From NCBI GenBank assembly GCA_003252375.1, contig QKEJ01000038.1, positions 1 through 64,000 of the forward strand: a stretch of 64,000 bases of DNA, given 5' to 3'. A model generated the notes under the pieces. It ran no database searches, was not told the origin of the DNA, and was given only the letters and a program-made list of their open reading frames with translations. The position numbers and the translations under genes were made by a program. The DNA is from Halodesulfovibrio sp. (GTDB taxonomy: Bacteria; Desulfobacterota; Desulfovibrionia; Desulfovibrionales; Desulfovibrionaceae). Of the stretch, positions 24,779 to 50,151 are shown one piece after another; within the stretch, counting starts at the first letter, position 1; every line of letters starts with the position of its first letter.

Positions 24779-27487
24779 TTAGGGGACGACACGCATGATG
24801 TATGCGGATTCCGGAGTGAGGTACTTGCGGGCCACGGCCCGCAGGTCTTCAGGGGTGAGCTTTTCTGCCTGCTCAATGACCTGACGGTTCAGATCGAGCG
24901 GAAGCCCCGATGCCGCAAGCGAGGCCGCTTCACCGCTGCGACTGCCCAGACTCTGGTGATCCCTGTAGTAGTCGCCGCGCAGCAGGTTCTTGCCGCGGCG
25001 CAGCTGTTCCTCGGGCAGGAGCGTCGTGTGCAGATTGGTGACAACCCGCCGGAAGCCGTCCATGGCCTGTGCTTCCTTCTCCGGCTCTGTGCCGATGTAG
25101 AAGGCCAGCAGGCCGGCGCGGTCGGACTGCCACGGGAAGGCCGTGACCGTGTAGCCGAGACCGTGCTTGTCGCGCAGATCATTGAAGAGCAGGCCGCTCT
25201 GGCCGGCAAGGATGGTTTGCAGCAGGTCAAGGGCCGGTCCGTCCTCGGAACCGAGAGGGGCCGTCTTGAAGATCATCAGCAGATGTGCCTGGTTGCGGTC
25301 CTTGAGCGTGAGGGTCTTGGACAGTTCCTCACCCCATTGCGGCTGTGATTCCGCGACCGGAGCTCCCGCAGGCATAGGCAGGGTTGCCGCCAGATGCAGG
25401 ATGGCTTCACGGTCAAACCTGCCGCAGACCGCAAGGGTCCATGGCTGGGTGACCTGGTGTTTCCAGTATTCCCGAACCGATTCCGGGGTAAAGGAGCCCA
25501 GCGTGGCTTCATCGCCCAGATGGTAGTACCCGTAGGCGTGGTTGCGGAACAGGAAGGGGAACATGTGGCGGAAGGCAAGTCCCAGAGGCTGGTCTTCACG
25601 CGACTTGATGGCTGCCTTCAGGTTGTTGATCTCGCGGGAAACCTCCTCGGACGCAAAGGCGGGGGCATCCAGTACGGATCGGAACAGGCCGAGCATGTCC
25701 GTGCTGAATCGCTCGGGGAACTTGGCCCGCAGGGTGAATGTCTGCCGTCCTGCGCTGGCACCGATGTCCGACGCCCTGTCGGACTGGAAGAGTTCCATGC
25801 CCGTGGCGTCCAGTTCGGATGTGCCCTTGGTCAGGGTACGCGCCGTCAATTCGGCAAGACCCTGATGGGACGCGTCAATAAGACTGTCGCCGCCCTTGAA
25901 GACCAAATCCATGGACAGGTAGGGCAGGGTGTCGTCGGGAATGAGGATGACCGTGCGCCCGTTGCCAAGGTCGACGGTTTCGGTCTGCTGCTTTGCATGG
26001 TCTACATCTGCCTGCTTCACGGCTACGGCATTGACCGGCCATGCCTGCCTGGTGGCCTTTTCAAGGGCAGTGGCATTGGCCTGCGCCCCTTCGGGCAGGA
26101 GAAGGACCGAGTGGAGACGCTCCGGGCGCAGGAAGGCCGAAATCACGTCCTGTATCTGGTCCGGTCCGGTCTGGCGCAGGGTCTGGATATAGTTCGCTTC
26201 GCCCTGTTCACCGCCGTTGAAGAACTGGAACATGCCGATCTTGGAGGTCAGTCCCGGAATGGTTTCCTTGGTCCGGAACATGGAATCCTCAAGGTTGAGC
26301 CGGGCACGCGCAAATTCGTCGTCAGAGAAGCTCTTTGCAGAGAGCGTCGCAAACGTGGCCATGAGTTCCTTCCAGAAGGTGTCCACCTTGTCGGCATCAA
26401 GGGTAGCCGAAAGGTAGAGGAAGCCGACCCGTTCGAAGGCATAGGCGCCGATGGAGATGTCATCCACCAGCTGCTTGTCATACTTGAAGGTGCGGTACAG
26501 TGTGGAGGTCCGGTCGCCGGCGAGCATCTGGGCCAGCACTTCAAGCGCGGTGGCGCGGGCGTCATTGAACCCGGGAATGGGCAGGGCTATGCTCATGTAG
26601 GCCTTGTTCCACTTGCCGTGCTCCACGGTTACGGTGGGCCCGTCCGTGAATGGGGCAAGATCAATACCTGCCGGAGGCAGACTTTCATGGGTGTTCGTGA
26701 GGTCGCCAAACTGTCTGCGGGCCTCGGAGAGCACGTCCTTGGCGCTGACGTCGCCGCTGACAACCAGCAGCATGGACTGCGGCTGGTAGTAGGTGGCGAT
26801 GTAGTCCTTGATATCCTGTCGGGAGAATCCGCTCACGGTATCCCGGTAGCCGATGATGGGCCGGGCATAGGGGGTGTTGGGCAATGTCTTGGCGGCAATG
26901 CGCTTGAAGAGCAGCTGGCCGGGATTGTCCTCGCCCCGTTCCAGTTCGGAAAGCACAACCTTCTTTTCGGATTCGAGTTCCTGCGGGTCGATGCTGGCGT
27001 TGAAGGCCATGTCCTTGAGCACGTCTATGCCGGTCTTCCAATGTTTGGAGGGGACATCGGCAAGGTAGACAGTGTAGTCGAAGCTGGTGGCGGCGTTGAT
27101 GTAGCCGCCAATGGCTTCAATATCCCCGGCGGCCCCGCCCTTGGGGCGCTTGTCCGTTCCCTTGAACACCATATGCTCGAGCAGATGGCTTATGCCGGCC
27201 TGCTTGGGCGTTTCATAGGCGGAACCGGCGTGCACGTAGAGGCGCACGGAGGCGAGAGGAAAACGCTTGTCCTCGAGCACGAGCACGGTCAGTCCGTTGG
27301 GGAGGCGGGTGACATGGGCCCCCCATGCAGGGAGTTCGGATGGCTTTTCTGTGACGGGGCGGGAGGTGGTAACTGGCAACATCTTCTCGCTTGGTTTGTC
27401 TGAAGGGTGATCTATGAACATGTAAATCGAGATCATCGCCAGCATGATGATGATCCCGAACAGGAAGCCTGAAAAGCGTTGAAACAT
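24779..27487 (-). CDS. M16 family zinc metallopeptidase, membrane-anchored
   Basis: The 902-aa protein has one N-terminal membrane anchor (SGFLFGIIIMLAMISIYMFI), then two M16 units. The first holds the inverted zinc motif HLLEH (101-105) with the distal Glu around SELERGEDNPG; the second half lacks the motif, as is usual for the inactive C-terminal pair of pitrilysin-type proteases. It probably cleaves peptides or small proteins in the periplasm. The track's start is 17 codons upstream; ATG at 27487 has AGGAG nine bases before and begins at the anchor. Monocistronic. Confidence 0.92.
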   Translation of the reverse strand: MFQRFSGFLFGIIIMLAMISIYMFIDHPSDKPSEKMLPVTTSRPVTEKPSELPAWGAHVTRLPNGLTVLVLEDKRFPLASVRLYVHAGSAYETPKQAGISHLLEHMVFKGTDKRPKGGAAGDIEAIGGYINAATSFDYTVYLADVPSKHWKTGIDVLKDMAFNASIDPQELESEKKVVLSELERGEDNPGQLLFKRIAAKTLPNTPYARPIIGYRDTVSGFSRQDIKDYIATYYQPQSMLLVVSGDVSAKDVLSEARRQFGDLTNTHESLPPAGIDLAPFTDGPTVTVEHGKWNKAYMSIALPIPGFNDARATALEVLAQMLAGDRTSTLYRTFKYDKQLVDDISIGAYAFERVGFLYLSATLDADKVDTFWKELMATFATLSAKSFSDDEFARARLNLEDSMFRTKETIPGLTSKIGMFQFFNGGEQGEANYIQTLRQTGPDQIQDVISAFLRPERLHSVLLLPEGAQANATALEKATRQAWPVNAVAVKQADVDHAKQQTETVDLGNGRTVILIPDDTLPYLSMDLVFKGGDSLIDASHQGLAELTARTLTKGTSELDATGMELFQSDRASDIGASAGRQTFTLRAKFPERFSTDMLGLFRSVLDAPAFASEEVSREINNLKAAIKSREDQPLGLAFRHMFPFLFRNHAYGYYHLGDEATLGSFTPESVREYWKHQVTQPWTLAVCGRFDREAILHLAATLPMPAGAPVAESQPQWGEELSKTLTLKDRNQAHLLMIFKTAPLGSEDGPALDLLQTILAGQSGLLFNDLRDKHGLGYTVTAFPWQSDRAGLLAFYIGTEPEKEAQAMDGFRRVVTNLHTTLLPEEQLRRGKNLLRGDYYRDHQSLGSRSGEAASLAASGLPLDLNRQVIEQAEKLTPEDLRAVARKYLTPESAYIMRVVP

Positions 27488-27688: not shown

Positions 27689-27749
27689 ACAATACCCGTC
27701 ATGGTGCGTGACCATGCGTTTGTCGCCGGTAACAGACAAGAGGAGTGGT

Positions 27750-29645
27750 ATGCCAGAGCCATTGCAGGCACAATTTTTTCGACAGACCTCGGCGCTGCTG
27801 AGTGAGCTGGAACCCCATCTTCTCGAACTCGAGGTTGCGGGAGAAGAGGCGGAATCCGAACTGGTCGGGCGCATCTTCAGGATAGTGCACGCCATTCGGG
27901 GGAGCGCAAGCCTGTTGGGACTGGAGAATCTGGAAGATCTGGCACGCCTGATCGAATGCGTGCTCGATTTGCTTCGGAGCGGAACCCTGCCGCTGACTCA
28001 GGGAGTCATTCGGGATGTCCTTCGCAGTTGCAGTGTGGTGCAAACCATGGTGGAAGGCGAGGCTGACGAACACTATGACGCCTGCATGGCAACCCTCAAG
28101 GAACATGCTGCAGGCGTCATGGAAGATGCGGCCATGCTCAATGTCCGCTATCCCATTTCCCTGCCGGACGGCAGACCCATCATGCAGATGACCGGGCATG
28201 AGCTTGAAGCCTGCATGATGAATGACGCATTTCTCTACGTGCTTGAATTCGACATGAAACGGGATGTGACCGACAAGGACATCACCCCGTTGAGCCTCCT
28301 TGAATATCTGCAGAAGAGCGGGCATGTGCTGGGGACCCATTGTTCGGGATCCCTTGATGACGCGGCCTGCGGATGTGCGGAGGGTCACACCACGCTCTTC
28401 GTCCTTTTTTCCTCCATTCTGGAACCGGATCTGGTGGATGCCGTCTTCATGCTCGACAGGCAGCAGATTCATCAGCTTGATCTTACGGATATCGTCAACG
28501 GCGGCGGCTCGTGGGATGATCTGACCGAGGAGTATCCGGCAGGTGAAACCAGTCCGCAGGTGAGTGATACTCCTCTTGAGGGTATCGACGAGTTGATGGA
28601 GGAGTTTGATCTGGCCATGCGGAAGCTGCAGGAGGATTCTCACGTTCCCTTTGAGCCGTGGGATGAGTATGTGCAGGAGCATCCTGCTCCGGTGGCTGCC
28701 CGTCAGGAAGGTGATGTCTTTGACGACCTCGCTCCTGTTGATGAAATTCTGGAGGGCTTTGACCCGGAAGAGGCCATGCCGGAAGGAGCCTTGCTGGTTG
28801 GCGAGGATTCTGCCACGGAAGAGGCAGGTGAAGCCCCTGATGCATCCATGCGTGATGCATTGCCGGAGGTTCTGGAGGAGACCGTAACGGTCCCTGAGGA
28901 GGTTGTCATGCCTGATGGTCCTGACGAGCAAACCTTGGCGTCAATTGCTGACGGTGCTCCGGATGCGGTCCCTGCGTCATCTGATGCTGTCGCGGACCCT
29001 GATGCACTTTTCGAGGACGGAGATGCCGTGGCGGAAGAAGATGACGAGCTTGCCGCCCTTGAGCGTGAATTCGAGCGGGCGCTTGTGGCTGAAGCACGCG
29101 CCTCGGGCATGATCGTGCCTGGCGAGGAAGACGGGCCGGAGGTTGCGGACAGTGCGCCGGACGCGTTCCAGGGAACGGGCGCAGACGATGATCCGGACGC
29201 GGACCTGTTTGTGGATTCCGGACGGGAAGCGGATATGTCCTATCTGGACGCTCCCCGGAAGGATGCGCCCGAAGAGAGCGGCGTTTTGCTGAACCTGGAA
29301 GGAGAGGTGGGAACCGTGCACGGATTTTCTGTTGTGACGCAAGAGACCGACGTGGTCGTGACACTGGATGGTGACATGACCATAGCCAACGCTGCACGGG
29401 CCCGGGAGGCGCTTCTTGAATTGATGCAGGAGCACTCCAGGGTGGATATCGACTTGCAGCAGGTGGAATCGGCAGATGTAACCTTTGTACAGGTTTTGCT
29501 TGCCGCCCGCAAAAGTGCCGACGAGCGCGGGGTGGTGCTGCAAGTGCGGCAGCCCGTGGCAGATGCCGTGGGACGGGTATTCAGGCTCTGCGGGCTGGAC
29601 CTGGAGGCCCGCAAGCGGCTTGGGCTTGGGGCGCTTTTTGCGTAG
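27750..29645 (+). CDS. HPt-acidic linker-STAS signalling protein
   Basis: The 631-aa protein starts with a CheA-type HPt domain: FRIVHAIRGSASLLG matches the phospho-accepting His segment (His ~47). Next comes a globular region (~140-260) whose FLYVLEFDMKRDVTDKDITPLSLLEYLQKSGHVL pattern resembles a domain found after HPt in CheA-like proteins. A ~260-residue linker very rich in Asp, Glu, Pro and Ala follows, and the last ~100 residues form a STAS domain (VVTLDGDMTIANAARAREALLELM; LQQVESADVTFVQVLLAA). No kinase, receiver or membrane segment is present. ATG at 27750 with AGGAG is preferred to the track start. It may be a phosphotransfer-linked partner-switch protein. Monocistronic with strong promoter and terminator. 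Confidence 0.82.
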   Translation: MPEPLQAQFFRQTSALLSELEPHLLELEVAGEEAESELVGRIFRIVHAIRGSASLLGLENLEDLARLIECVLDLLRSGTLPLTQGVIRDVLRSCSVVQTMVEGEADEHYDACMATLKEHAAGVMEDAAMLNVRYPISLPDGRPIMQMTGHELEACMMNDAFLYVLEFDMKRDVTDKDITPLSLLEYLQKSGHVLGTHCSGSLDDAACGCAEGHTTLFVLFSSILEPDLVDAVFMLDRQQIHQLDLTDIVNGGGSWDDLTEEYPAGETSPQVSDTPLEGIDELMEEFDLAMRKLQEDSHVPFEPWDEYVQEHPAPVAARQEGDVFDDLAPVDEILEGFDPEEAMPEGALLVGEDSATEEAGEAPDASMRDALPEVLEETVTVPEEVVMPDGPDEQTLASIADGAPDAVPASSDAVADPDALFEDGDAVAEEDDELAALEREFERALVAEARASGMIVPGEEDGPEVADSAPDAFQGTGADDDPDADLFVDSGREADMSYLDAPRKDAPEESGVLLNLEGEVGTVHGFSVVTQETDVVVTLDGDMTIANAARAREALLELMQEHSRVDIDLQQVESADVTFVQVLLAARKSADERGVVLQVRQPVADAVGRVFRLCGLDLEARKRLGLGALFA

Positions 29646-29706: not shown

Positions 29707-32289
29707 TCAGTCCATGTGCTGGGCCGTCTTGGTCAGGGCAATGTCCAGAAGTCCAAAGGCCGGAGTCACGGCAAGGATGAGCTTGAGGGGGGATACGTAC
29801 AGATCGGACCAGTCGAAGGTCAGGTCGTAGCCTGCATCCGTAGGCTTGATTGAGTGGAAGAGGGGGCGAATGTCCACCAGCCGCGTGCCCTTTTTGGTCT
29901 CACGGGTCCATTCGAATGCCGTACACGCCGAAAAGTCGGCAAAGGCGGCATCAAATTCGGCTCTGCGTTCCGCAGGGCCGGCATAGTGAAGGGAAAACTC
30001 CTCTGCAATGGCCTGTGGTTGCTTGCGGGAATGGTCCAGCTGCTGCACGCGGGTGGGGTGCATGCCGCGGGGGAAGCCCGTGGCGATGGCGGTAAAGACC
30101 GACTGTGCAGGCATGGGCTCCCGCAGGTAGATATTTACCCATTCAGCAGTGCTGGCAACGCCGACAGGCAGGGCCTTTCCGAAGGAGATGAGCGGCAGGG
30201 GGTGGAAGCCCTGCGAAAAGGTCATGGGGAGCCCGGCCCGTCTGAAGACACGCTCGAAGACGGATTGCAATTCCAGCTGCGACAGGTACACGGAAGGACC
30301 TTCCTTGGTGTACCAGATACGGTAATGCACGGCCTTGTGTCCGAGGTCGCCGGCAAGTTGCGGCGGACCGCTGGTTTCCTGTTCCTTCTGAACGACATTG
30401 CCGCGTTCGTCGGTTTCAGCCTCGTGTGTCATCTGGTCCCGTTCGGGGCGGTTCAGGATGTTGCGATACGCTGCTTCGGGAACGGGACGGTCCAGCAGCG
30501 AGGGCTGTTTGCCCACGTCGCAGGTGCCGCACAGATGGCAGGCTCCGTACCGACAGTCGTCGGTGATGGCCATTTCATGGGCGCGCTGCCGCTCCTTGAG
30601 CAGGAACGTATCGGAGACGCCGCTCCGGATGTGGGCCCACGGCAGCGGCAGGGCGGTGTCACGCTCCGCGATATATTCCTCGTAGGTCAGCCCGTGCTCG
30701 GCAAGGGATTCCATATAGGGTTCCAGCTTGAAGTGTTCCATCCAGCTGCTGAAGACGGCTCCCTTGCGGTAGGCGGTTTCCACCACATCGGCGAGACGTC
30801 GGTCGCCGCGCGAGAAGATGCCTTCAAGTGCGCTGGAGGTGGGCTCGTGCCAGCGCATGCGCATGCTCTTTTCCTTGTTGAAGGCGTCACGCAGGTAGAA
30901 GATGCGGTTGCGGATTTCCTCCAGCGGAATCTGTGCCTCCCACTGGAAGGGGGTGTGCGCCTTGGGCACGAAGGGAGAGATGGATGCCGTGACGTTGAGG
31001 CGCCGGACGTGTCCGGCTGCTCCACGTACCTTGCGGCACAGCTCCACGATGGCGTCGAGATCCTCGTAGGTTTCCGTGGGCAGGCCGATCATGAAATAGA
31101 GTTTCACCTGCTGCCAGCCGTGCTGGAAGAGCTTGCGAATGTGCAGAAGGAGCTGTTCCTCGGTGATGCCCTTGTTGATCACGTCGCGCAGTCGCTGGCT
31201 GCCGGCCTCCGGTGCAAGAGTGGCCCCTGTACGGCGAATCCCGGCCATGCGGGCCATGATGTCGTCATCAATGGAGCCGACCCGCAGGGACGGCAGGGAG
31301 ACGGAAATCTGTTCATCGGCGCAGCGGTCCACGGTACGGGTGAACAGGGTTTTCAGAGCCGAAAAATCCCCGCTGGAGAGCGAGAGGAAGGACAGCTCGT
31401 CGTATCCCGTGGTGGTGAGGGTCTCCTGCAGGATCTGTTCTATCTGTTCGACGGAACGCTCCCGGGCAGGGCGGTAGATGATGCCCGCCTGGCAGAAGCG
31501 GCAGCCGCGGGTGCAGCCACGTCCGATTTCCAGTGCGAGTCTGCTGTGCACCGCGCCGAAGGGAATGGGCTGGGAAACGGGAAATTCGGCATCGTCCATG
31601 TCCGTGACCACGCGACGGGCCGGGGAGACATGGTCGTCGTACAAGGGCACAAGGGCTTCGTCCTTTCCGGTGAAGCGGAAGAATGAAGGGACGTATACGC
31701 CGGATATGCGGCAGGCCCGGCGCAGAAATTCATGTCGTGTGGTCTTCTCGGCCTTGCAGGCTTCCAGCAGGTCGAGCAGCTCGACCATCATGGTTTCCCC
31801 TTCGCCCAGCACCATCAGGTCCATGAACGGGGCAATGGGTTCGGCTGCAAGGGTACAGCCTCCGCCTGCCATGACAATGGGAATGTCCAGCGTGTCGCCC
31901 CGCTGTTCCGTACGCAGGGGGATGCCGCCGAGATCAAGCATGTACAGGATGTTGGTGAAGCACAGCTCGTGCGTCACGTGAAACCCGACCAAATCAAGCC
32001 TGGAAAGCGGCGTGTCCGATTCCAGGGTTGACAGTTCCGTCTTGTGCTCGCGCAGAATGGCAGCCGTATCGGTACAAGGGGTGAAGACGCGTTCTGCCCA
32101 CCATGCATCCCGTTTGTTGATGATGCCGTAAAGGATCTTCTGTCCGAGGTAGGACATGCCTACCTCATACATGTCGGGAAAGGCCAGTGCCAGATGGAGG
32201 GATACGGAATCCCGGTTCTTGTGGATGGCCCCTTCTTCTATGCCCAGATAACGGGTGGGTTTGGGGATAAGGGGGAGCAGTTCACGCAT
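29707..32289 (-). CDS. TIGR03960-type radical SAM protein with C-terminal DUF2344 domain
   Basis: The 860-aa protein has an N-terminal B12-binding-like region (ALAFPDMYEVGMSYLGQKILY), a radical SAM core with CTRGCRFCQAGIIYRPARERS supplying the CxxxCxxC iron-sulfur ligands, a Cys-rich CRYGACHLCGTCD segment, and a C-terminal TIGR03936/DUF2344 domain (VYLSQLELQSVFERVFRRAGLPMTFSQGFHP). In many bacteria the two halves are separate genes; here they are fused in one chain. The substrate is not established; links to RNA or ribosomal modification have been proposed from neighbourhoods. ATG at 32289 with AAAGGA starts the conserved MRELLPLIPKPTRYLG; the track's upstream extension runs through the neighbouring terminator and is wrong. 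Confidence 0.93.
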   Translation of the reverse strand: MRELLPLIPKPTRYLGIEEGAIHKNRDSVSLHLALAFPDMYEVGMSYLGQKILYGIINKRDAWWAERVFTPCTDTAAILREHKTELSTLESDTPLSRLDLVGFHVTHELCFTNILYMLDLGGIPLRTEQRGDTLDIPIVMAGGGCTLAAEPIAPFMDLMVLGEGETMMVELLDLLEACKAEKTTRHEFLRRACRISGVYVPSFFRFTGKDEALVPLYDDHVSPARRVVTDMDDAEFPVSQPIPFGAVHSRLALEIGRGCTRGCRFCQAGIIYRPARERSVEQIEQILQETLTTTGYDELSFLSLSSGDFSALKTLFTRTVDRCADEQISVSLPSLRVGSIDDDIMARMAGIRRTGATLAPEAGSQRLRDVINKGITEEQLLLHIRKLFQHGWQQVKLYFMIGLPTETYEDLDAIVELCRKVRGAAGHVRRLNVTASISPFVPKAHTPFQWEAQIPLEEIRNRIFYLRDAFNKEKSMRMRWHEPTSSALEGIFSRGDRRLADVVETAYRKGAVFSSWMEHFKLEPYMESLAEHGLTYEEYIAERDTALPLPWAHIRSGVSDTFLLKERQRAHEMAITDDCRYGACHLCGTCDVGKQPSLLDRPVPEAAYRNILNRPERDQMTHEAETDERGNVVQKEQETSGPPQLAGDLGHKAVHYRIWYTKEGPSVYLSQLELQSVFERVFRRAGLPMTFSQGFHPLPLISFGKALPVGVASTAEWVNIYLREPMPAQSVFTAIATGFPRGMHPTRVQQLDHSRKQPQAIAEEFSLHYAGPAERRAEFDAAFADFSACTAFEWTRETKKGTRLVDIRPLFHSIKPTDAGYDLTFDWSDLYVSPLKLILAVTPAFGLLDIALTKTAQHMD

Positions 32290-34494: not shown

Positions 34495-36924
34495 TTATTC
34501 GTCGTTGCTGGCGAGGTTCGCCACCAGCTCCTTGAGCTGCTGGGCGAGCGTTGCCAGTTCATGAACGGCGTCCGAGGACTGTTCCATGGATTGAGCGGTC
34601 TCCCGGCTCAGGTTGTTGATCTCGTCCGTTGCCCGGGTGATCTCTTCCGACGTGGCGGACTGCTGTTCGGCCGCGGTGGCAATGGAGCGGACCCTGTCGG
34701 ATGTGCTGAGTACCGTCTCAACGATGCTGGAAAGCGAGTCCCCGGCCTTGTGGGTCTGTTCCGCATTGTCGGCTACCAGCTTGGCCACGTCCTGCATATG
34801 ATGCAGAGTCTCCGACGTGCTGCCCTGAATGGCCCTGACAACGTTCTCCACTTCCTTGGTGGCCGTCATGGTCTTTTCAGCAAGTTTGCGCACTTCGTCG
34901 GCAACGACGGCGAAGCCGCGTCCTGCTTCGCCTGCGCGGGCAGCCTCGATGGCGGCGTTAAGGGCCAGCAGGTTTGTCTGATCAGCGATATCGTTGATGA
35001 CGCCTATGATCTGACCAATGCCTTCTGCCTGTTTGCCCAGCTGGGTAAGCGTCTTTTCCATCTCCTGCGTGTGAGTATGGACCTTGTCCGTGGAGAGGAT
35101 GACCCCCTGCACAACCGTGGCGCCATCACGGGCGATGATCTGTGCCTCTTCCGCCTTTTCTGCGGCCTCTCCGGCATTCTGCGCCACTTCCAGCGTGGTG
35201 GCGTTCATTTCCTCGATGGCAGTGGCTGATTCGTTTATACGGTCACTCTGCATGGCCGAGGTCTGGCTGGCGTCTGAAACCCTGTCCGCAAGCTGGGCGG
35301 CTGCGCTGGAAACCTGATTGGCGATTTCCGTGGCGGCAATAGCCGTTTCCGCGATACGTTCGTTCTGTGCCTTGACCTGCTGTTCGCTGTCCCGCACGTT
35401 GGTCAGGTCATACCAGAAGGTGATGGACCCGAGCATGACACCGTCGGAATCATAGAACGGCGTGCTGGTGACATCTATGTTGTATTCCTTGCCCGAGGGA
35501 GCCGTCAGCTTGATTTCCCTGTTCTGGCGCTGCTTATCCCTTATGGCCTTGTCAGAAAGAGTATCTCTTGCTGCGTCGCCCCAGAAGAATTCGCCGGAGC
35601 GGATTCCGATGTATTCCTCCGGCTTTTTGGTCTTTTCCAGTATGGTACAGATCTGTTCGTTGGCCCAGAGAATGGTGAATTCCGGGCTGACAATGACGCT
35701 GGGAGTGGTGATGCCGTTCAGCACGCCTTGCGCAAAGCCGAGCTTGTGCTTCAATTCGCCTACCATGGCGTTGACCGACTTGACGGTATCACCAATGGCA
35801 TCGGCGGAATCATACTGGAAGGTTGCGTTCAGGTCTCCGTCTGCAATGCGCCGCGTTACGGCGGAAAGGCCGGTAAGGGGACGCAGCATCATGCGGATGA
35901 GGAAGGAGAAGAGGATAATGGCAATGACGGCGCCACCGATGCTCATACCCACCATGGCCAGCATGATCTTCTTGTCCGCACCGAGATAGATGTCCTTGGC
36001 AGGCAGCCAGAACGTGATGTGCCAGTCCCAGGGCTTGTAATACCGTTTGTAGGCAATGAACTTGGTTCCCTCGTGCGTGAAGTCGAGGAAGCCTTCGGCT
36101 GCGCCGATGAGCGTCTTGCCGTGGGGGATATCTGCGAACGAGGCGCCCTTTTGGGTTTCATCCGCAGTGTAGGCATACTCTCCGTTGGAGAGAGCGATGT
36201 TCGTCTCGCCGAACCCGTTATAGGAGACCTTGGCGATGACCTTGCGCAGGCCGGGGGTAAGCATTTCGCGTCCTACGTAGATGACAGCGATAATCTTCCC
36301 CGTGGCATCCTTGATGGGCTTGTACGCGGTAACGTACCAGTTGTTCACCACGAATGCCTTGCCCCGGAAGGTCTCTCCGTTCATGACGGTCTTGTAGACC
36401 GGGCTTGATGAGGGGATGTATGTGCCCACGGCACGGTTGCCGTCAAGCTTGAGGACATTGGTTGAGACGCGGAGGAGCTTGTCCGGCAACACCTGGAATA
36501 TGGTGGCCGTACCGCCCACGGTTTTCTGGATGTCATCGACGAGGGTGAAGGTGTTATTGAGCGTGCTGCCCGTGAATCCATCCCCGATTTTCAGCAGAGG
36601 TATGGTAACCTTTTCCTTATCCTTGGTAACCTGATTGACGATGGTTGCTTGTACGGTTTCCATGGTGTCGAGGAACAGGGAACCGGTCTGGGCGATTTCC
36701 TTGTCCATGACGGCAAGGTCGGCGTCCAGTTTTTCCTGTGTAATCTGGTTCTGCAGTTCGATGGCGTCTTCCAGCTCCACAAGCAGGGAGGAAATGTAGT
36801 GTTCTCCTAGAATTTCCAGCGTGTGTTTGGATGTTGAATAGAAGTAGAGTCCGGAAACAAGCAGCATAGCTACAACGGTGCTGACAATGCTTAGCTGGAG
36901 TTTTCTGTTGAAGTTCAATTGCAT
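34495..36924 (-). CDS. Methyl-accepting chemotaxis protein with Cache, HAMP and PAS domains
   Basis: An 809-aa chemoreceptor: TM1 ([19 protein letters not shown]), a ~290-residue periplasmic Cache-type region (VYIGREM... pattern [29 protein letters not shown]), TM2 ([17 protein letters not shown]), HAMP, a PAS domain ([23 protein letters not shown]) and the cytoplasmic signalling domain with the conserved hairpin tip [18 protein letters not shown]. No CheR-binding pentapeptide at the C-terminus. ATG at 36924 has GGAGGGG; the track's longer start is unsupported. A sigma-28 promoter upstream ties it to the motility regulon. Ligand unknown. Confidence 0.95.
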
Positions 36925-43820: not shown

Positions 43821-45551
43821 CTAGCAGGCGCGCAGTTCGTCCAGATGTGTCCTGGCGAACTCGATGCCGGGATCGATTTCCAGCGCTGCGGAGAGATACT
43901 CTTCTGCCTCCTCGCGTTGTCCAAGGAACTTGCAGCACAGGCCGAGGTTGGCAAGATCTATGGCGGAGCCCTTGTCCAGATCCCTGATGAGGGTCCGGAA
44001 GTCGTCTGCCGCTTCCGCGTACATGCCCAGCTTGAAGTGGGTGACTCCACGGAAGTTGAAGTACTCCTTCATCTCCGGACAGAGGCGAACGGCCCTGTTC
44101 AATCCGGGAAGGGCATCCTGCCAGGCTTCCCGCAGGGTATGGCAGTAGCCGCTGTAGAAGGCCGCAAGCCCCTTGGCGTCATCCTCTGGCTGAAGCGGTT
44201 CAGCTTCCTCGAAAAGGCCGGCGGCCACATCGTATGCCTCGGCCCGCAGGGCCAGCATGCCCTTGAAGAAGGGCAGAAAGTGCGCATCGGGATACACGCG
44301 TTCCAGTACGTCCAGCCCTTCGGCAGCCTGTTTGGCGTCGTATTCCTCACTGAGGATGCGGCCGATGAACAGGCCAAGGGAGGCGTTCTTGTCCCGTTCC
44401 CGGAACCGGAATCCGGGAACAAAGCTGTAGTGCGCCGGCACCTCCACTTCGGGGTGCGTGGTCCGGATGGAGTAGAGACGGAACTGCTGCGCGTCCAGCC
44501 CGCGGGCCAGCGCCATGAGTTCTTCGTAGATATCGCCGTGTGCGACGGAGGGCAGCGCCTCCAGGGTGGTCTCGGAGCCGTCGAGCAGCCAGCCGAGGTC
44601 TTCGGGCCGCGCGTACTTGGGAAGTCCGGAAGCCTCGTAGCAGGCACCGGTTTCGAAATCGCCCGCCAGCTGCGCCACCTCGGTCAGGGCACGGACGGCG
44701 GCCTTGACCGGTGAGGAGGCCGTTCCGGCCGTGTAGACGATTTCCGATGTTTCGGGGAAGGTTGCCGGGTCCCAGGCAATGGCGGCCACCGTGGGGACGG
44801 GCATGCCTTCTGAAAAGTCCTTGAGGATGACGACGATGCCGTTGTCCCGGAACTTGCGGAGCAGGTCCGCCAGCACGGGATCTTCCGCACCGTCCGTCAC
44901 GATGGTGGGCACCGGAGTGCCGGCCCGGTCGATGAGGCAGCAGACATGGCGCTCCACCAGTTCGCAGGCTCCCTGAAAGATGGATTCCTCATCCGTGTTG
45001 CCTGCGGAGGAGCCGTTGAATTCACCCAGCTTGCGGAACCAGTCGAGCGGCACGATGCGCTCTTCGCCGGAGAGAATGTCCGTAGCCGGGCAGAACCACC
45101 ACTCCACCAGATCCAGGACCTGAACAGCCTGTTCATGTGGCAGCGTTTCGGAAACGGACTGGAGAATGACATCCAGGCCGATGAGCCGGTTTCCGAAGCG
45201 TTGTGCGGCCTCGGACCATGTGCAGCGCACCATCTCGGGTTTGCGGTCCCAGAAGGTCCAGTAGCTGTAGCGTTCCATCAGCTCCATGAGTGCCGAGGCT
45301 TCAGCCTGGTCAATGGAAGCGCCTTTGCCCATCTGCTTGCGGGTGGGCATGAAGCGGCGTGCATCGGCTCCGCACACGGACAGGAAAACCGGAATGCCCA
45401 GCCGCCCCGTGTCGATGCGCCGGGTCTCCGAAAGAATGCTCGTGTCGAGCCCGGCAAGCCGTTCCTTGACCCGGCGTACCGTTTCCGCAGGAGACATGAC
45501 CTTGTCCTGGTCCGTGGTATAGTGCTTCACGCAGCTTGAGAGTCTGATCAT
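43821..45551 (-). CDS. YcaO-domain protein with C-terminal TPR repeats
   Basis: The 576-aa protein has an N-terminal YcaO ATP-binding domain: SALMELMER (86-94) is the Sx3ExxER motif, SSAGNTDEESIFQGACELVER (~181-201) is the second conserved block, and KAAVRALTEVAQ (~290) is the third, where the usual Arg after Gln is replaced (QLAGD). YcaO enzymes activate a peptide backbone amide with ATP to make azoline or thioamide. Residues ~385-576 are TPR-like helices (SALEIDPGIEF at the end), no PxPxP tail. The ATG is two bases after the methyltransferase stop with no ribosome-binding site of its own, so it is coupled. No TOMM precursor, TfuA or dehydrogenase gene is nearby. The target is unknown; E. 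coli YcaO aids RimO-dependent S12 methylthiolation, one possible analogy. Confidence 0.87.
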   Translation of the reverse strand: MIRLSSCVKHYTTDQDKVMSPAETVRRVKERLAGLDTSILSETRRIDTGRLGIPVFLSVCGADARRFMPTRKQMGKGASIDQAEASALMELMERYSYWTFWDRKPEMVRCTWSEAAQRFGNRLIGLDVILQSVSETLPHEQAVQVLDLVEWWFCPATDILSGEERIVPLDWFRKLGEFNGSSAGNTDEESIFQGACELVERHVCCLIDRAGTPVPTIVTDGAEDPVLADLLRKFRDNGIVVILKDFSEGMPVPTVAAIAWDPATFPETSEIVYTAGTASSPVKAAVRALTEVAQLAGDFETGACYEASGLPKYARPEDLGWLLDGSETTLEALPSVAHGDIYEELMALARGLDAQQFRLYSIRTTHPEVEVPAHYSFVPGFRFRERDKNASLGLFIGRILSEEYDAKQAAEGLDVLERVYPDAHFLPFFKGMLALRAEAYDVAAGLFEEAEPLQPEDDAKGLAAFYSGYCHTLREAWQDALPGLNRAVRLCPEMKEYFNFRGVTHFKLGMYAEAADDFRTLIRDLDKGSAIDLANLGLCCKFLGQREEAEEYLSAALEIDPGIEFARTHLDELRAC

Positions 45552-45552
45552 G

Positions 45553-46287
45553 CTATTTGGCCCGTAATCTGTGAATGGTGAAGAGGGCGCGTCCGGCGTT
45601 GTCCGCTGCGGCGTCAGCAGCCGGGGCGGTCGATGCCTTGGTGCCGACGGTCTGTTCCTGCATGCGGAAGTCGCGTTCTGCAAGCTTGAAGAACTTCTTG
45701 GCCTTGCGCATGTAATCCTTGGCCAGCACGGCTTCGGCATCGGCCCGGCTGGAGAGGTGATGGCCGATGAACTTGACCAGCGCGCGGTGCAGGGATTCAA
45801 GATAGAGCACTTCGGCTCCGACAATGTAGTCGAAGGTCCGGTCGAGCCGGGTCGTCTGTATGTCCACCCGGCGCACCTGCACACGGTCGTCAAAACCGTT
45901 CTGCAGGACATTGATGCGGGCAAAGAGCAGGGCGTCGTCATTGATGTCGGAGATGACGATTTCCGAGAAGCCCTGCGTGGCGGCTATGAGGCCGGTCACG
46001 CCGCATCCAGCGCCGATTTCCAGCAGGGAGCGTCCCTCGGAGGGGACATGACGCAGGAAATGGCCGAGCATGAAGGAGGCGGGCCATATCTTTGCCCAGA
46101 GCGGCAGAGCCTTGAGGGCGTCTTCCTTGATGGTCGGGACAAGGTTGTCCAGGTAGGCGCGCATGTTCTGAACCTGCAGCACCTCAAGGGTAGTATCCCC
46201 CACGGTGAGCGGCTCGAAGCCCACTTCGAAGCGTTGCCGCGCCATATCGAGCAGTTCGTCCAGTGGAGCATCCAGACGGTATTGCAT
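45553..46287 (-). CDS. SAM-dependent methyltransferase (METTL21/protein methyltransferase-like)
   Basis: A 244-aa class I methyltransferase. LPLWAKIWPASFMLGHFL is the helix typical of METTL21/NNT1-type protein methyltransferases; motif I is LLEIGAGCGVTGL, motif II VISDINDDAL, and YIVGAEVLYLESLH stands where the catalytic D/E-xx-Y segment lies. The C-terminus is Ala-rich and basic. ATG at 46287 with AAGGA; the track's longer ORF runs into tRNA genes. It is translationally coupled to the YcaO gene, so the pair likely modifies the same target. Confidence 0.85.
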   Translation of the reverse strand: MQYRLDAPLDELLDMARQRFEVGFEPLTVGDTTLEVLQVQNMRAYLDNLVPTIKEDALKALPLWAKIWPASFMLGHFLRHVPSEGRSLLEIGAGCGVTGLIAATQGFSEIVISDINDDALLFARINVLQNGFDDRVQVRRVDIQTTRLDRTFDYIVGAEVLYLESLHRALVKFIGHHLSSRADAEAVLAKDYMRKAKKFFKLAERDFRMQEQTVGTKASTAPAADAAADNAGRALFTIHRLRAK

Positions 46288-47100: not shown

Positions 47101-47175
<75 letters not shown>

Positions 47176-47211
47176 TAAGGAATATATGATGCCTTGCGGC
47201 GTACCGACGAG

Positions 47212-47286
<75 letters not shown>

Positions 47287-47321
47287 GCTCAAAAAAGGTG
47301 CTCCAACCCTATTCGGGTAAA

Positions 47322-47343
47322 ACTGGCGGCCTGAGCCGCCAGT
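47322..47343 (-). terminator. Hairpin between two tRNA-Gly genes
   Basis: ACTGGCGGC-TCAG-GCCGCCAGT on the minus strand followed by TTTTAC. It may terminate part of the transcription or act as a processing signal between tRNA-Gly(GCC) and tRNA-Gly(CCC). Confidence 0.45.
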
Positions 47344-47352
47344 CCGGATTAC

Positions 47353-47427
<75 letters not shown>

Positions 47428-47431
47428 AGGA

Positions 47432-47506
<75 letters not shown>

Positions 47507-47897
47507 TCATTGTTGGCTACGCGTTCCACTCCTGTGTATCCGTTCGGAATCAGAAGTGTTTTCCGCTGTTGCCGGAGTGCTTTTGCCTCAACCCGATGGG
47601 GATTGCAAGCACTTTTTTCAACTTTTTCCCGAAGTCGTTTTTCATCGTTTTCGCGGCGAAACCCGTCATTGGGGAAGCAGGTAATTGCCATACGCCGGGT
47701 ATCTTGTCAATTCCAAAGGCGTAATCCATGAAATTGGTTCGCTTTCAGCAGTGCAGAGGGGGGCGGATTTCGTTGGCGCTCATGGGATCTGCAGGAAAGG
47801 TTGTGGCGGTGCCGGGTTTTACTTGCGCTATTCTCTGTAGTATGGGGAAGTCCGCAACGGAAAACCCTGCATGAACAAGGTGGAGTGATTCAGCCGA
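47507..47897. other. 391-base gap upstream of the tRNA cluster and the two-component operon
   Basis: No gene. It should hold divergent promoters. On the minus strand TTGACA at 47710-47705 with CAATTA 17 bases on is a weak candidate for the tRNA cluster; on the plus strand TAGTAT at 47838-47843 is a possible -10 for the response regulator gene, with a poor -35. Confidence 0.4.
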
Positions 47898-48587
47898 ATG
47901 CAAACCGATATACTGCTTTTTGATGATGACGTGAAACTTCAGGCCCTGCTGGTCGAGTATCTGCAAGGGGCTGGATTTTCGGTGCATTGCCGTCAGAGCG
48001 GATTGAATGCCGTTGCTGACGTGCTGGCGGTGCAGCCTGTGCTTGTCATCCTTGATATCATGATGCCCGACATGGACGGACTGACGGTCCTCAGGACCCT
48101 GCGTGAGCAATCGTCTGTGCCCGTAGTCATGCTGACGGCTCGCGGGGATGACTCCGACCGCATTGTCGGACTTGAGCTGGGAGCGGACGACTACCTTGCA
48201 AAGCCGTTCAACCCGCGCGAACTGCTGGCGCGCATTCGTGCCGTACTCCGCCGTGCCGAGGTTGGTCAGCAGGGAACACCGCTGCAGCTTATAGAATGTG
48301 CCGGGCTGACCCTTAACACGGGGAAACAGGAACTCATTGTCGGCAACACCGTTACCCAGCTTTCTCCCACGGAAACCAAGCTCATGGCGGAGCTGATGCG
48401 TCAGCCCAACGTGGAGCACTCTCGTGAAGACCTCATGGTGCGCGTCTGGGAACGGGAATTTACCGCCTATGACCGGTGTATTGACGTGCACATTTCCAAG
48501 TTGCGCAGTGTTCTCAAGCCGTTTGCCGCCCATGCGGATCGCATCAGGACGGTCTGGGGGAAGGGGTACATGTTTCTGGGGGGCTGA
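47898..48587 (+). CDS. OmpR-family response regulator (CpxR-like)
   Basis: A 229-aa regulator: receiver with LLFDDDVKL, phospho-acceptor Asp in VLVILDIMMPDMDG, Thr in MLTARG and Lys in LAKPF, then a winged-helix DNA-binding domain (SPTETKLMAELMRQPN... DRCIDVHISKLRSVL). The stop overlaps the kinase ATG (TGATG), so the pair is coupled. Resembles the CpxR/CpxA envelope-stress type by architecture; no CpxP-like gene is seen. Ribosome-binding site is weak. Confidence 0.94.
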   Translation: MQTDILLFDDDVKLQALLVEYLQGAGFSVHCRQSGLNAVADVLAVQPVLVILDIMMPDMDGLTVLRTLREQSSVPVVMLTARGDDSDRIVGLELGADDYLAKPFNPRELLARIRAVLRRAEVGQQGTPLQLIECAGLTLNTGKQELIVGNTVTQLSPTETKLMAELMRQPNVEHSREDLMVRVWEREFTAYDRCIDVHISKLRSVLKPFAAHADRIRTVWGKGYMFLGG

Positions 48588-49984
48588 TGCGTATTAACTG
48601 CCTGTATACCAAGTTGCTGCTTGGTTTCTTTGCAACGCTGGGCATGGTGGCGCTGTGCCTTGCCCTGTTGTTCTCCTATTTCGTCGGCGCCCGCCTGCAG
48701 GAGGATGGGGACAATGAACTGCAGGCGGCGTTCCGTCTTTCCTCCACCGGTCTTTCCCTGCTTGCTCCGCCCGACAGGCGCGCGAGTGATGCTGCCCGCC
48801 GGGAGCTGCAGGTCTTTGTGGATGATCTTGAAGTGGTCTACGAGGGGCCGGTCTGGCTGCGGCATGCCAACGGAACCGTCTTCATGGCGTCCAACGGGCA
48901 GCCGGTTCCCGCCTTTACGGAGTCAGACAGGTATACACGTGATCAGCTTGTATACGGCACTGTCCATCAGGCGCCGTATACGTACCATCTTTCCTATCCG
49001 GTCTCATTCTTCGGGTATGACGGCACGCTGGAAGTGCTCGGCTGTGAGGATATCCACAACAGACACGTGGTGATGACCCTTCTGTGGGTCATGGTCGTGG
49101 TTGTGGGAGGCATTTCATTGCTCGCCTTTCCGTTCGTCCGGAGAATTACCGGTCCCCTGCGAAGGCTGGAGGAGGGAGCATTGCAATGTGCAGCCGGAAA
49201 CCTGGATTTTCGGGTGGAAATTCCGCAACGCGATGAATTGGGCCGTGTGGCCAAGGCCTTCAATGCCATGGCGGACAGCGTGCAGGATATGCTGCGCCTG
49301 AAACAGGAGCTCATGGCCAACGTCTCCCATGAGATGCGCAGTCCGCTGGCCCGGATGCGGGTTGCCCTGGAGTTGGCCCAGCAGGATACGGCAGGGCATC
49401 AGTGCACCAATGCCGCACGCCACCTGGCGATTGTCGAGGAAGAGGTGGAGGCCATGGATGCCGTGATAGGCGAGGTGCTGGCCATAAGCCGGTACGGCAT
49501 AGAGGAGCGGGTGCGTCGTCGCGGGGCGTGCGACATGGCGGAAATGGTGCGTGCCGTGCTCGACAAGTATGCCCTGCTCATGTCGAGTCGCCGGATTCGC
49601 CTGGAGGCCATGCTTCCGGCGTCATTAACCGTGCATTGTCAGTACGAGGCACTGCCCACCGCCATCCGCAACATGGTGGAGAATGCCGTCAAGTTTACTC
49701 CGGAAGGGGGCATGATCAGGGTGGAGCTTGATCAGCTTCCGGGAGCTACGCGCCTGCGCATGACCAATAGTTATGCCCCTCTTTCGGAATGCCAGCTGAA
49801 GGGAATCTTTCAGCCCTTTGCCAGAATTGAGGGCGAGAGCGTTCCCGGCACCGGGCTGGGGCTTGCATTGACCGACCGGATCATTGTGGGACACGGCGGC
49901 ACCATCGTGGCGGAGAATGTTCCCGACGGCATCATGTTTACGGTGCTGTTGCCGGTGCAGGAGCCGATGGAAGAGATGCCATAG
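48587..49984 (+). CDS. Sensor histidine kinase (CpxA-like)
   Basis: A 465-aa inner-membrane kinase: TM1 (LLLGFFATLGMVALCLALLFSYFV), ~130-residue periplasmic sensor, TM2 (MTLLWVMVVVVGGISLLAF), HAMP, H-box LMANVSHEMRSPLARMRVAL, N-box RNMVENAVKF and the G-box GTGLGLAL. It phosphorylates the regulator encoded upstream. Stimulus unknown. Confidence 0.94.
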   Translation: MRINCLYTKLLLGFFATLGMVALCLALLFSYFVGARLQEDGDNELQAAFRLSSTGLSLLAPPDRRASDAARRELQVFVDDLEVVYEGPVWLRHANGTVFMASNGQPVPAFTESDRYTRDQLVYGTVHQAPYTYHLSYPVSFFGYDGTLEVLGCEDIHNRHVVMTLLWVMVVVVGGISLLAFPFVRRITGPLRRLEEGALQCAAGNLDFRVEIPQRDELGRVAKAFNAMADSVQDMLRLKQELMANVSHEMRSPLARMRVALELAQQDTAGHQCTNAARHLAIVEEEVEAMDAVIGEVLAISRYGIEERVRRRGACDMAEMVRAVLDKYALLMSSRRIRLEAMLPASLTVHCQYEALPTAIRNMVENAVKFTPEGGMIRVELDQLPGATRLRMTNSYAPLSECQLKGIFQPFARIEGESVPGTGLGLALTDRIIVGHGGTIVAENVPDGIMFTVLLPVQEPMEEMP

Positions 49985-50026
49985 ACAAAGAAGAGCCCCC
50001 GGCTGATGCCGGGGGCTCTTCTTTGT
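49985..50026. terminator. Strong hairpin after the two-component operon
   Basis: A 19-bp perfect stem ACAAAGAAGAGCCCCCGGC with its complement and a 4-base loop. Its T-rich ends serve the + strand operon; it also lies downstream of the minus-strand tRNA-Gly. Confidence 0.85.
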
Positions 50027-50076
50027 ATGTGTGCCACACACAGAGTCGTAAGGCCATGTATGGCTTTTTCGCGAAC

Positions 50077-50151
<75 letters not shown>

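Follow-up and report, generated by a model that had tools for sequence, protein, structure and literature searches.

Domain architecture of the HPt-STAS protein

The analysed window is a stretch of 64,000 nucleotides from a Halodesulfovibrio sp. contig (QKEJ01000038.1). An open reading frame of 631 codons, with its ATG at position 27,750 and its stop codon ending at 29,645, lies in the window between genes encoding an M16 peptidase and a radical-SAM/DUF2344 protein (Table 1). An ORF check confirmed these limits, as an earlier note on this DNA had given them, and showed a GAGGAG at 27,740-27,745. The Pfam search of the protein likewise bore out the absence of kinase and receiver domains, and the P3 dimerisation, P4 ATPase and P5 CheW-like domains of CheA gave no match. 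No RNA family was found within the gene, and the upstream region contained a single promoter-like match, not above chance. The AlphaFold2 model, built on 20 family members, showed HPt helices (residues 3-123), an alpha/beta domain (127-250), a disordered stretch with two helices, and a STAS domain (519-625).

Table 1. Features of the HPt-STAS gene and of its slot (window coordinates)
Feature	Residues	Position	Strand	Basis
M16 peptidase, conserved on the left side of the slot		24779..27487	-	synteny
Shine-Dalgarno-like GAGGAG, 4 nt 5' of the ATG		27740..27745	+	sequence
CDS, 631 aa: HPt, ferredoxin-like (P2-position) domain, acidic linker, STAS		27750..29645	+	ORF, Pfam, N-terminus aligned with orthologues
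HPt domain, CheA P1 type	3-123	27756..28118	+	Pfam PF01627, AF2 model, CheA P1 1i5n
Predicted phospho-accepting histidine	His47	27888..27890	+	orthologue alignment
Ferredoxin-like alpha/beta domain, CheA P2 position in relatives; no Pfam entry	127-250	28128..28499	+	AF2, domain order of relatives
Acidic, mostly disordered linker, net charge -70	251-517	28500..29300	+	AF2, composition
Predicted helix within linker	279-296	28584..28637	+	AF2
Predicted helix within linker (LAALEREFERALVAEARASGM...), counterparts in short orphans	428-451	29031..29102	+	AF2, alignment
Conserved linker motif PDADLFVDSGREADMSYL	482-499	29193..29246	+	alignment
STAS domain, RsbV-like fold	518-625	29301..29624	+	Pfam, 6m36 RsbV
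Radical-SAM/DUF2344 protein, conserved on the right side of the slot		29707..32289	-	synteny

Both terminal domains proved to be those previously proposed. The N-terminal domain matched the Pfam Hpt profile (PF01627) over residues 13-96 (E 5.4e-9, 36.6 bits against a cut-off of 24.6), and a Foldseek comparison of the AlphaFold2 model with the CheA P1 structure 1i5n gave a TM-score of 0.85 on the target, confirming an HPt of the CheA type. The anticipated phospho-accepting histidine was found as His47 within VHAIRGSA, together with Gly51 and Glu69; the usual lysine at +3 is replaced by Arg50 and the usual second histidine by Arg66. The C-terminal domain matched STAS_2 (PF13466, residues 537-617, E 3.8e-16, 59.5 bits, likewise above the curated cut-off) and the fold of RsbV (6m36, TM-score up to 0.80 on the target, Foldseek). 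Its TIGR00377 score of 36.5 bits was below the 53.45 cut-off. The position of the canonical phosphorylated serine, following the conserved aspartate, is occupied by Val577 and is other than serine in 37 of 38 family members.

The HPt and STAS domains are not joined directly by a linker of about 260 residues, as the earlier note had it; the folded domain at residues 127-250, which is conserved in every homologue, had been overlooked. The possibility that residues 110-517 are entirely linker was ruled out, as residues 127-250 fold confidently, with a pLDDT of about 90 in the full AlphaFold2 model and 86 when modelled alone. A Foldseek search of this middle domain against the PDB returned only unrelated ferredoxin-like folds (best E 0.036) and did not match the CheA P2 structures, and its sequence profile did not match any solved structure. 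Comparison with the domain at the P2 position of the neighbouring CheA proteins was weak (hhalign probability 4.8%). We place the middle domain at the P2 position because the same HPt and middle domains form the N-terminus of CheA hybrids (see below); the assignment goes by position only and does not extend to P2 identity in sequence or fold. The remaining linker has 267 residues (30% Asp/Glu, 9% Pro) and is acidic and Asp/Glu/Pro-rich, as had been described, but it is not featureless, as it contains the two predicted helices and the conserved motif listed in Table 1.

Distribution of the family and erosion of the phospho-site

Profile searches found an intact orthologue in 10/10 sampled genomes of Halodesulfovibrio, the genus of the window, so the fusion is not a chance event. 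Orthologues were also found in many genera of Desulfovibrionaceae and of the order, and a closer-alignment profile scan of genome contigs gave five Nitratidesulfovibrio/Desulfovibrio loci. The window genome (G000) is a draft, 86.5% complete; the argument from absence rests on congeners that are 97-99% complete. Family members encoded in operons have about 370-460 residues. Orphan members are either long (578-779 residues; the window, G021, G096, G132 and Nitratidesulfovibrio) or short (490-548 residues; six congeners).

The phospho-site differs between these forms, and conservation of the histidine is therefore mixed. In window numbering, H47/K50/H66/E69 were present in all 21 aligned operonic proteins. 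The long orphans carried R50, R66 and E69 in 11/11 cases and H47 in nine of the 11, with threonine at position 47 in G096 and G132. All six short orphans showed P47/S50/D66/Q69, i.e. H47 in 0/6. The phospho-accepting histidine is consequently absent from eight of the ten sampled congeners, in six of which the whole site is gone, and the family tree requires at least two separate losses. Successive stages stand side by side in the genus: the histidine is kept in G000 and G021, lost in the presence of CheA in G096 and G132, and lost along with the rest of the site and CheA in six genomes. The HPt of the species lacking the histidine is under purifying selection, without decay. It shows 75-88% identity between species, with a dN/dS of about 0.10-0.23; the corresponding values for the middle domain were 0.06-0.12. 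Each of the three folded domains had a dN/dS well below 1, as estimated by simple pairwise counting with partial saturation.

The linker is variable. The motif PDADLFxDSGxxxDxSYL within it is near-invariant in 11/11 long orphans and absent from the short orphans and operonic forms, a pattern that fits a docking motif. In the STAS domain, residue 578 is threonine in the window protein, threonine or serine in 11/11 long orphans and in 7/21 operonic members, and glutamate in the short orphans.

The operon of relatives and the proposed CheA origin of the N-terminal domains

In other Desulfovibrionaceae and in a sister family, the orthologue is encoded in an operon of the order REC-PP2C, RsbW-like ATPase, STAS, HPt-STAS orthologue, CheA. 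The order recurs in G031 and G069 and, with the ATPase and STAS fused, in G037, G058 and G080, as well as in G166, outside the family. Several genomes place the operon in or next to the slot that the gene occupies in the window. In G010 (L041), REC-PP2C, an ATPase-STAS protein and then the orthologue lie in the M16/radical-SAM slot, which in the window holds only this gene. A partial set occupies the slot in G051, the five-gene run of G014 adjoins an M16 gene, and REC-PP2C, ATPase-STAS, orthologue and CheA adjoin a radical-SAM gene in G055. The operon-type REC-PP2C was found in 34 of 149 family genomes, 31 of which also carry the HPt-STAS orthologue, and no orthologue of it was detected in any sampled genome of Halodesulfovibrio or Nitratidesulfovibrio. 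Because the slot is shared and the operon-type REC-PP2C is absent from both genera, the HPt-STAS gene in the window is what is left of a chemosensory/partner-switch operon.

Two other families of the order (L136 and L138) have the HPt and middle domains at the N-terminus of CheA-REC hybrids of about 1030-1120 residues, where they precede H-kinase_dim, HATPase_c, two CheW domains and REC. These N-termini (L136_7 and L138_4) are 46-53% identical to the operonic members, and a STAS gene lies upstream of the hybrid in both families. At L136:5932-13287, outside the family, one run comprises STAS, the CheA-REC hybrid and, downstream of the hybrid, a dCache MCP, CheW, REC-PP2C and an RsbW-like ATPase; it is apparently a chemosensory module wired to partner switching. 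Owing to the operon context, and to the HPt and middle domains being the P1-P2 end of whole CheA-REC kinases, the protein is a fusion of a CheA P1-P2 fragment with STAS, derived from a chemosensory/partner-switch module. The STAS form may have arisen from a CheA hybrid, or the hybrid from the STAS form.

Candidate partners and alternative explanations

What was observed is the architecture of the protein, the synteny and operon of its gene, the pattern of losses, the changed residues and the purifying selection; all phosphotransfer and binding steps of the proposed mechanism are those we infer. In the ancestral system, trans-phosphorylation of the P1 histidine by the neighbouring CheA would be followed by transfer of the phosphate to the receiver domain of the REC-PP2C phosphatase, which would reset the STAS/RsbW pair; the fused STAS would tether the P1 unit to that pair. 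As the canonical serine position of the fused STAS is not phosphorylatable, this domain would serve as a binding arm that is not switched. In Halodesulfovibrio and Nitratidesulfovibrio, only this gene is left in the slot: the operon partners were lost, and the gene kept its STAS domain and acquired the long acidic linker. Today the protein most likely serves as a partner-binding adaptor acting through the STAS domain, the P2-like domain and the linker motif, and phosphorylation of His47, perhaps by the remaining flagellar-type CheA, would be an optional input already lost in sister species. We consider it fairly probable that the protein is an orphaned CheA P1-P2-STAS adaptor, kept mainly for its STAS, middle-domain and motif contacts, in which phosphorylation is optional or lost. 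Phosphorelay is probably its origin and not its conserved present function, since the site is altered or lost in the orphans though the HPt is under purifying selection.

The window copy itself provides the counterpoint, as it retains His47 and a flagellar-type CheA of 706 residues (C123) is still encoded in its genome, in addition to a multi-HPt CheA (C154). Phosphorelay may thus still be its main job: a CheA or hybrid kinase would phosphorylate His47, and the state of the HPt would control STAS binding through the flexible linker. Such a working relay is in keeping with the retained His47, Gly51 and Glu69, with the CheA P1 fold, with the full site of all operonic homologues and with the C123 CheA being about 48% identical to the operonic partner. 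C123 was rejected as the operon's own CheA, as operonic genomes carry both kinds (58-62% and 48-50% identity). The CheA of about 706 residues is absent from the six short-orphan genomes and kept in G096 and G132, so loss of the histidine is not simply a result of the loss of this CheA. This loss despite an intact CheA, the histidine missing from most congeners, the replacement of the Lys50 and His66 equivalents in all orphans and the absence of a dedicated receiver partner nearby make a working relay unlikely in the window lineage. The earlier proposal that phosphorelay and partner switching meet in one protein is accordingly well supported for the ancestral form, with its operon of CheA, REC-PP2C, RsbW-like ATPase and STAS, and weaker for the window lineage, where these partners are gone, Arg50 and Arg66 have appeared and the histidine is lost in most congeners. 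At the opposite extreme, the lost partners, eroding active site and variable linker could mark a decaying remnant without function, which is highly improbable given intact genes throughout the sampled genus and Nitratidesulfovibrio and the low dN/dS of the three folded domains.

The protein could also serve a second partner-switch trio instead of the lost partners, docking through the linker motif; this would be compatible with either the adaptor or the phosphorelay reading. The trio (REC-PP2C, RsbW-like ATPase and STAS; G000:C59:31100-32934) lies beside FapA. In L101:3959-6934 (G000:C59), where the trio is next to a FapA-type gene, its STAS has a canonical DSSGIG site. The trio's REC-PP2C was present in every sampled long-form genome of both genera and missing from all five genomes with the short form that were searched, the linker motif is likewise limited to long forms, and, in related genomes with both on one contig, about 20-24 kb separate the trio from the orphan gene. 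A single loss in one clade would yield the same pattern, however, so that shared ancestry suffices; the distance reflects only shared synteny, and the two are on different contigs in the window genome. We therefore regard this partnership as distinctly doubtful. The FapA-linked REC-PP2C was also ruled out as a relocated operon partner, as it forms a separate orthologue group and coexists with the operon type (e.g. in G010, G005 and G014).

Two further proteins of the window genome are encoded at L107:3-937 (G000:C16:3-937). The first ends in a receiver, is truncated by the start of the contig and is CheV-like by eye; directly after it comes a single-domain HPt of 128 residues. The best match of this HPt among the compared proteins was an operonic-family HPt (42% identity), and HPt matches of similar size were found in G021, G096 and G132.

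Returning to the orphaned adaptor, a protein kept after its partners were lost, with its phospho-site under erasure, suggests a signalling part with a new job. More specifically, we propose tentatively, and at somewhat less than even confidence, that the HPt derived from CheA has turned into a pseudo-HPt, a protein-binding domain that is fused to STAS and works independently of phosphate, kept by selection while the kinase, the receiver partner and the site were lost stepwise. Arabidopsis AHP6 is a pseudo-HPt protein in which the HPt fold was kept after loss of the histidine. The HPt without histidine in most congeners is kept in the same manner; the family described here differs from AHP6 in being bacterial, CheA-derived and STAS-fused, and the window copy retains its histidine.

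Relation to known signalling systems

The STAS fold is shared with RsbV/SpoIIAA (PDB 6m36, 1th8). In contrast to these proteins, the family has Val/Leu/Ile and others at the phosphorylated serine, is fused to CheA domains and, in this lineage, has no adjoining RsbW gene. The operon of the relatives has the same parts as the Pseudomonas aeruginosa HptB-HsbR-HsbA system, in which an HPt protein feeds a receiver-phosphatase that resets a STAS anti-anti-sigma factor (PMC5085249, PMC8256260). There, HPt and STAS are separate proteins, whereas P1, the P2-like domain and STAS form one chain in the window; HptB is moreover served by hybrid kinases instead of CheA, and HsbR has a kinase activity of its own (PMC5085249, PMC8256260). 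Like the split CheA of Rhodobacter sphaeroides (CheA3/CheA4), in which P1 without P3/P4 is trans-phosphorylated by another CheA, the window protein has P1 without P3/P4, but CheA3 keeps P5 and its array attachment (PMC3591291), while the C-terminus of the window protein is STAS, without P5. By analogy, the operonic form would work like HptB-HsbR-HsbA combined with a split CheA. The window lineage lacks the defining features of both systems; HPt, receiver-PP2C and STAS genes lie together in the operonic relatives and not in the window's genus.

Literature searches, including one for HPt with STAS in Desulfovibrio, returned no paper describing HPt and STAS in one protein. Within the literature searched, the arrangement is hence not a described system, as the earlier note had suspected, though its logic is close to HptB-HsbR-HsbA plus split CheA. 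The chemosensory/partner-switch operon, which extends across Desulfovibrionaceae and sister families, was also without a description in that literature. CheA phosphotransfer and STAS partner switching are two kinds of signalling logic, here united in a single chain. Members of the family also form a natural series of a phosphotransfer domain that is retained although its chemistry is lost, which makes the survival of signalling parts after loss of their circuit testable.

Other features of the window

A Cache/PAS methyl-accepting chemotaxis protein is encoded near the orphan gene (34,495-36,867, minus strand), and its full-length counterpart is absent from the syntenic loci compared. A YcaO-domain protein with C-terminal TPR repeats is encoded at 43,824-45,941 (minus strand). 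Five tRNA genes lie at 47,104-50,151, also on the minus strand; four of them fall within about 400 bases, and three have identical scores.
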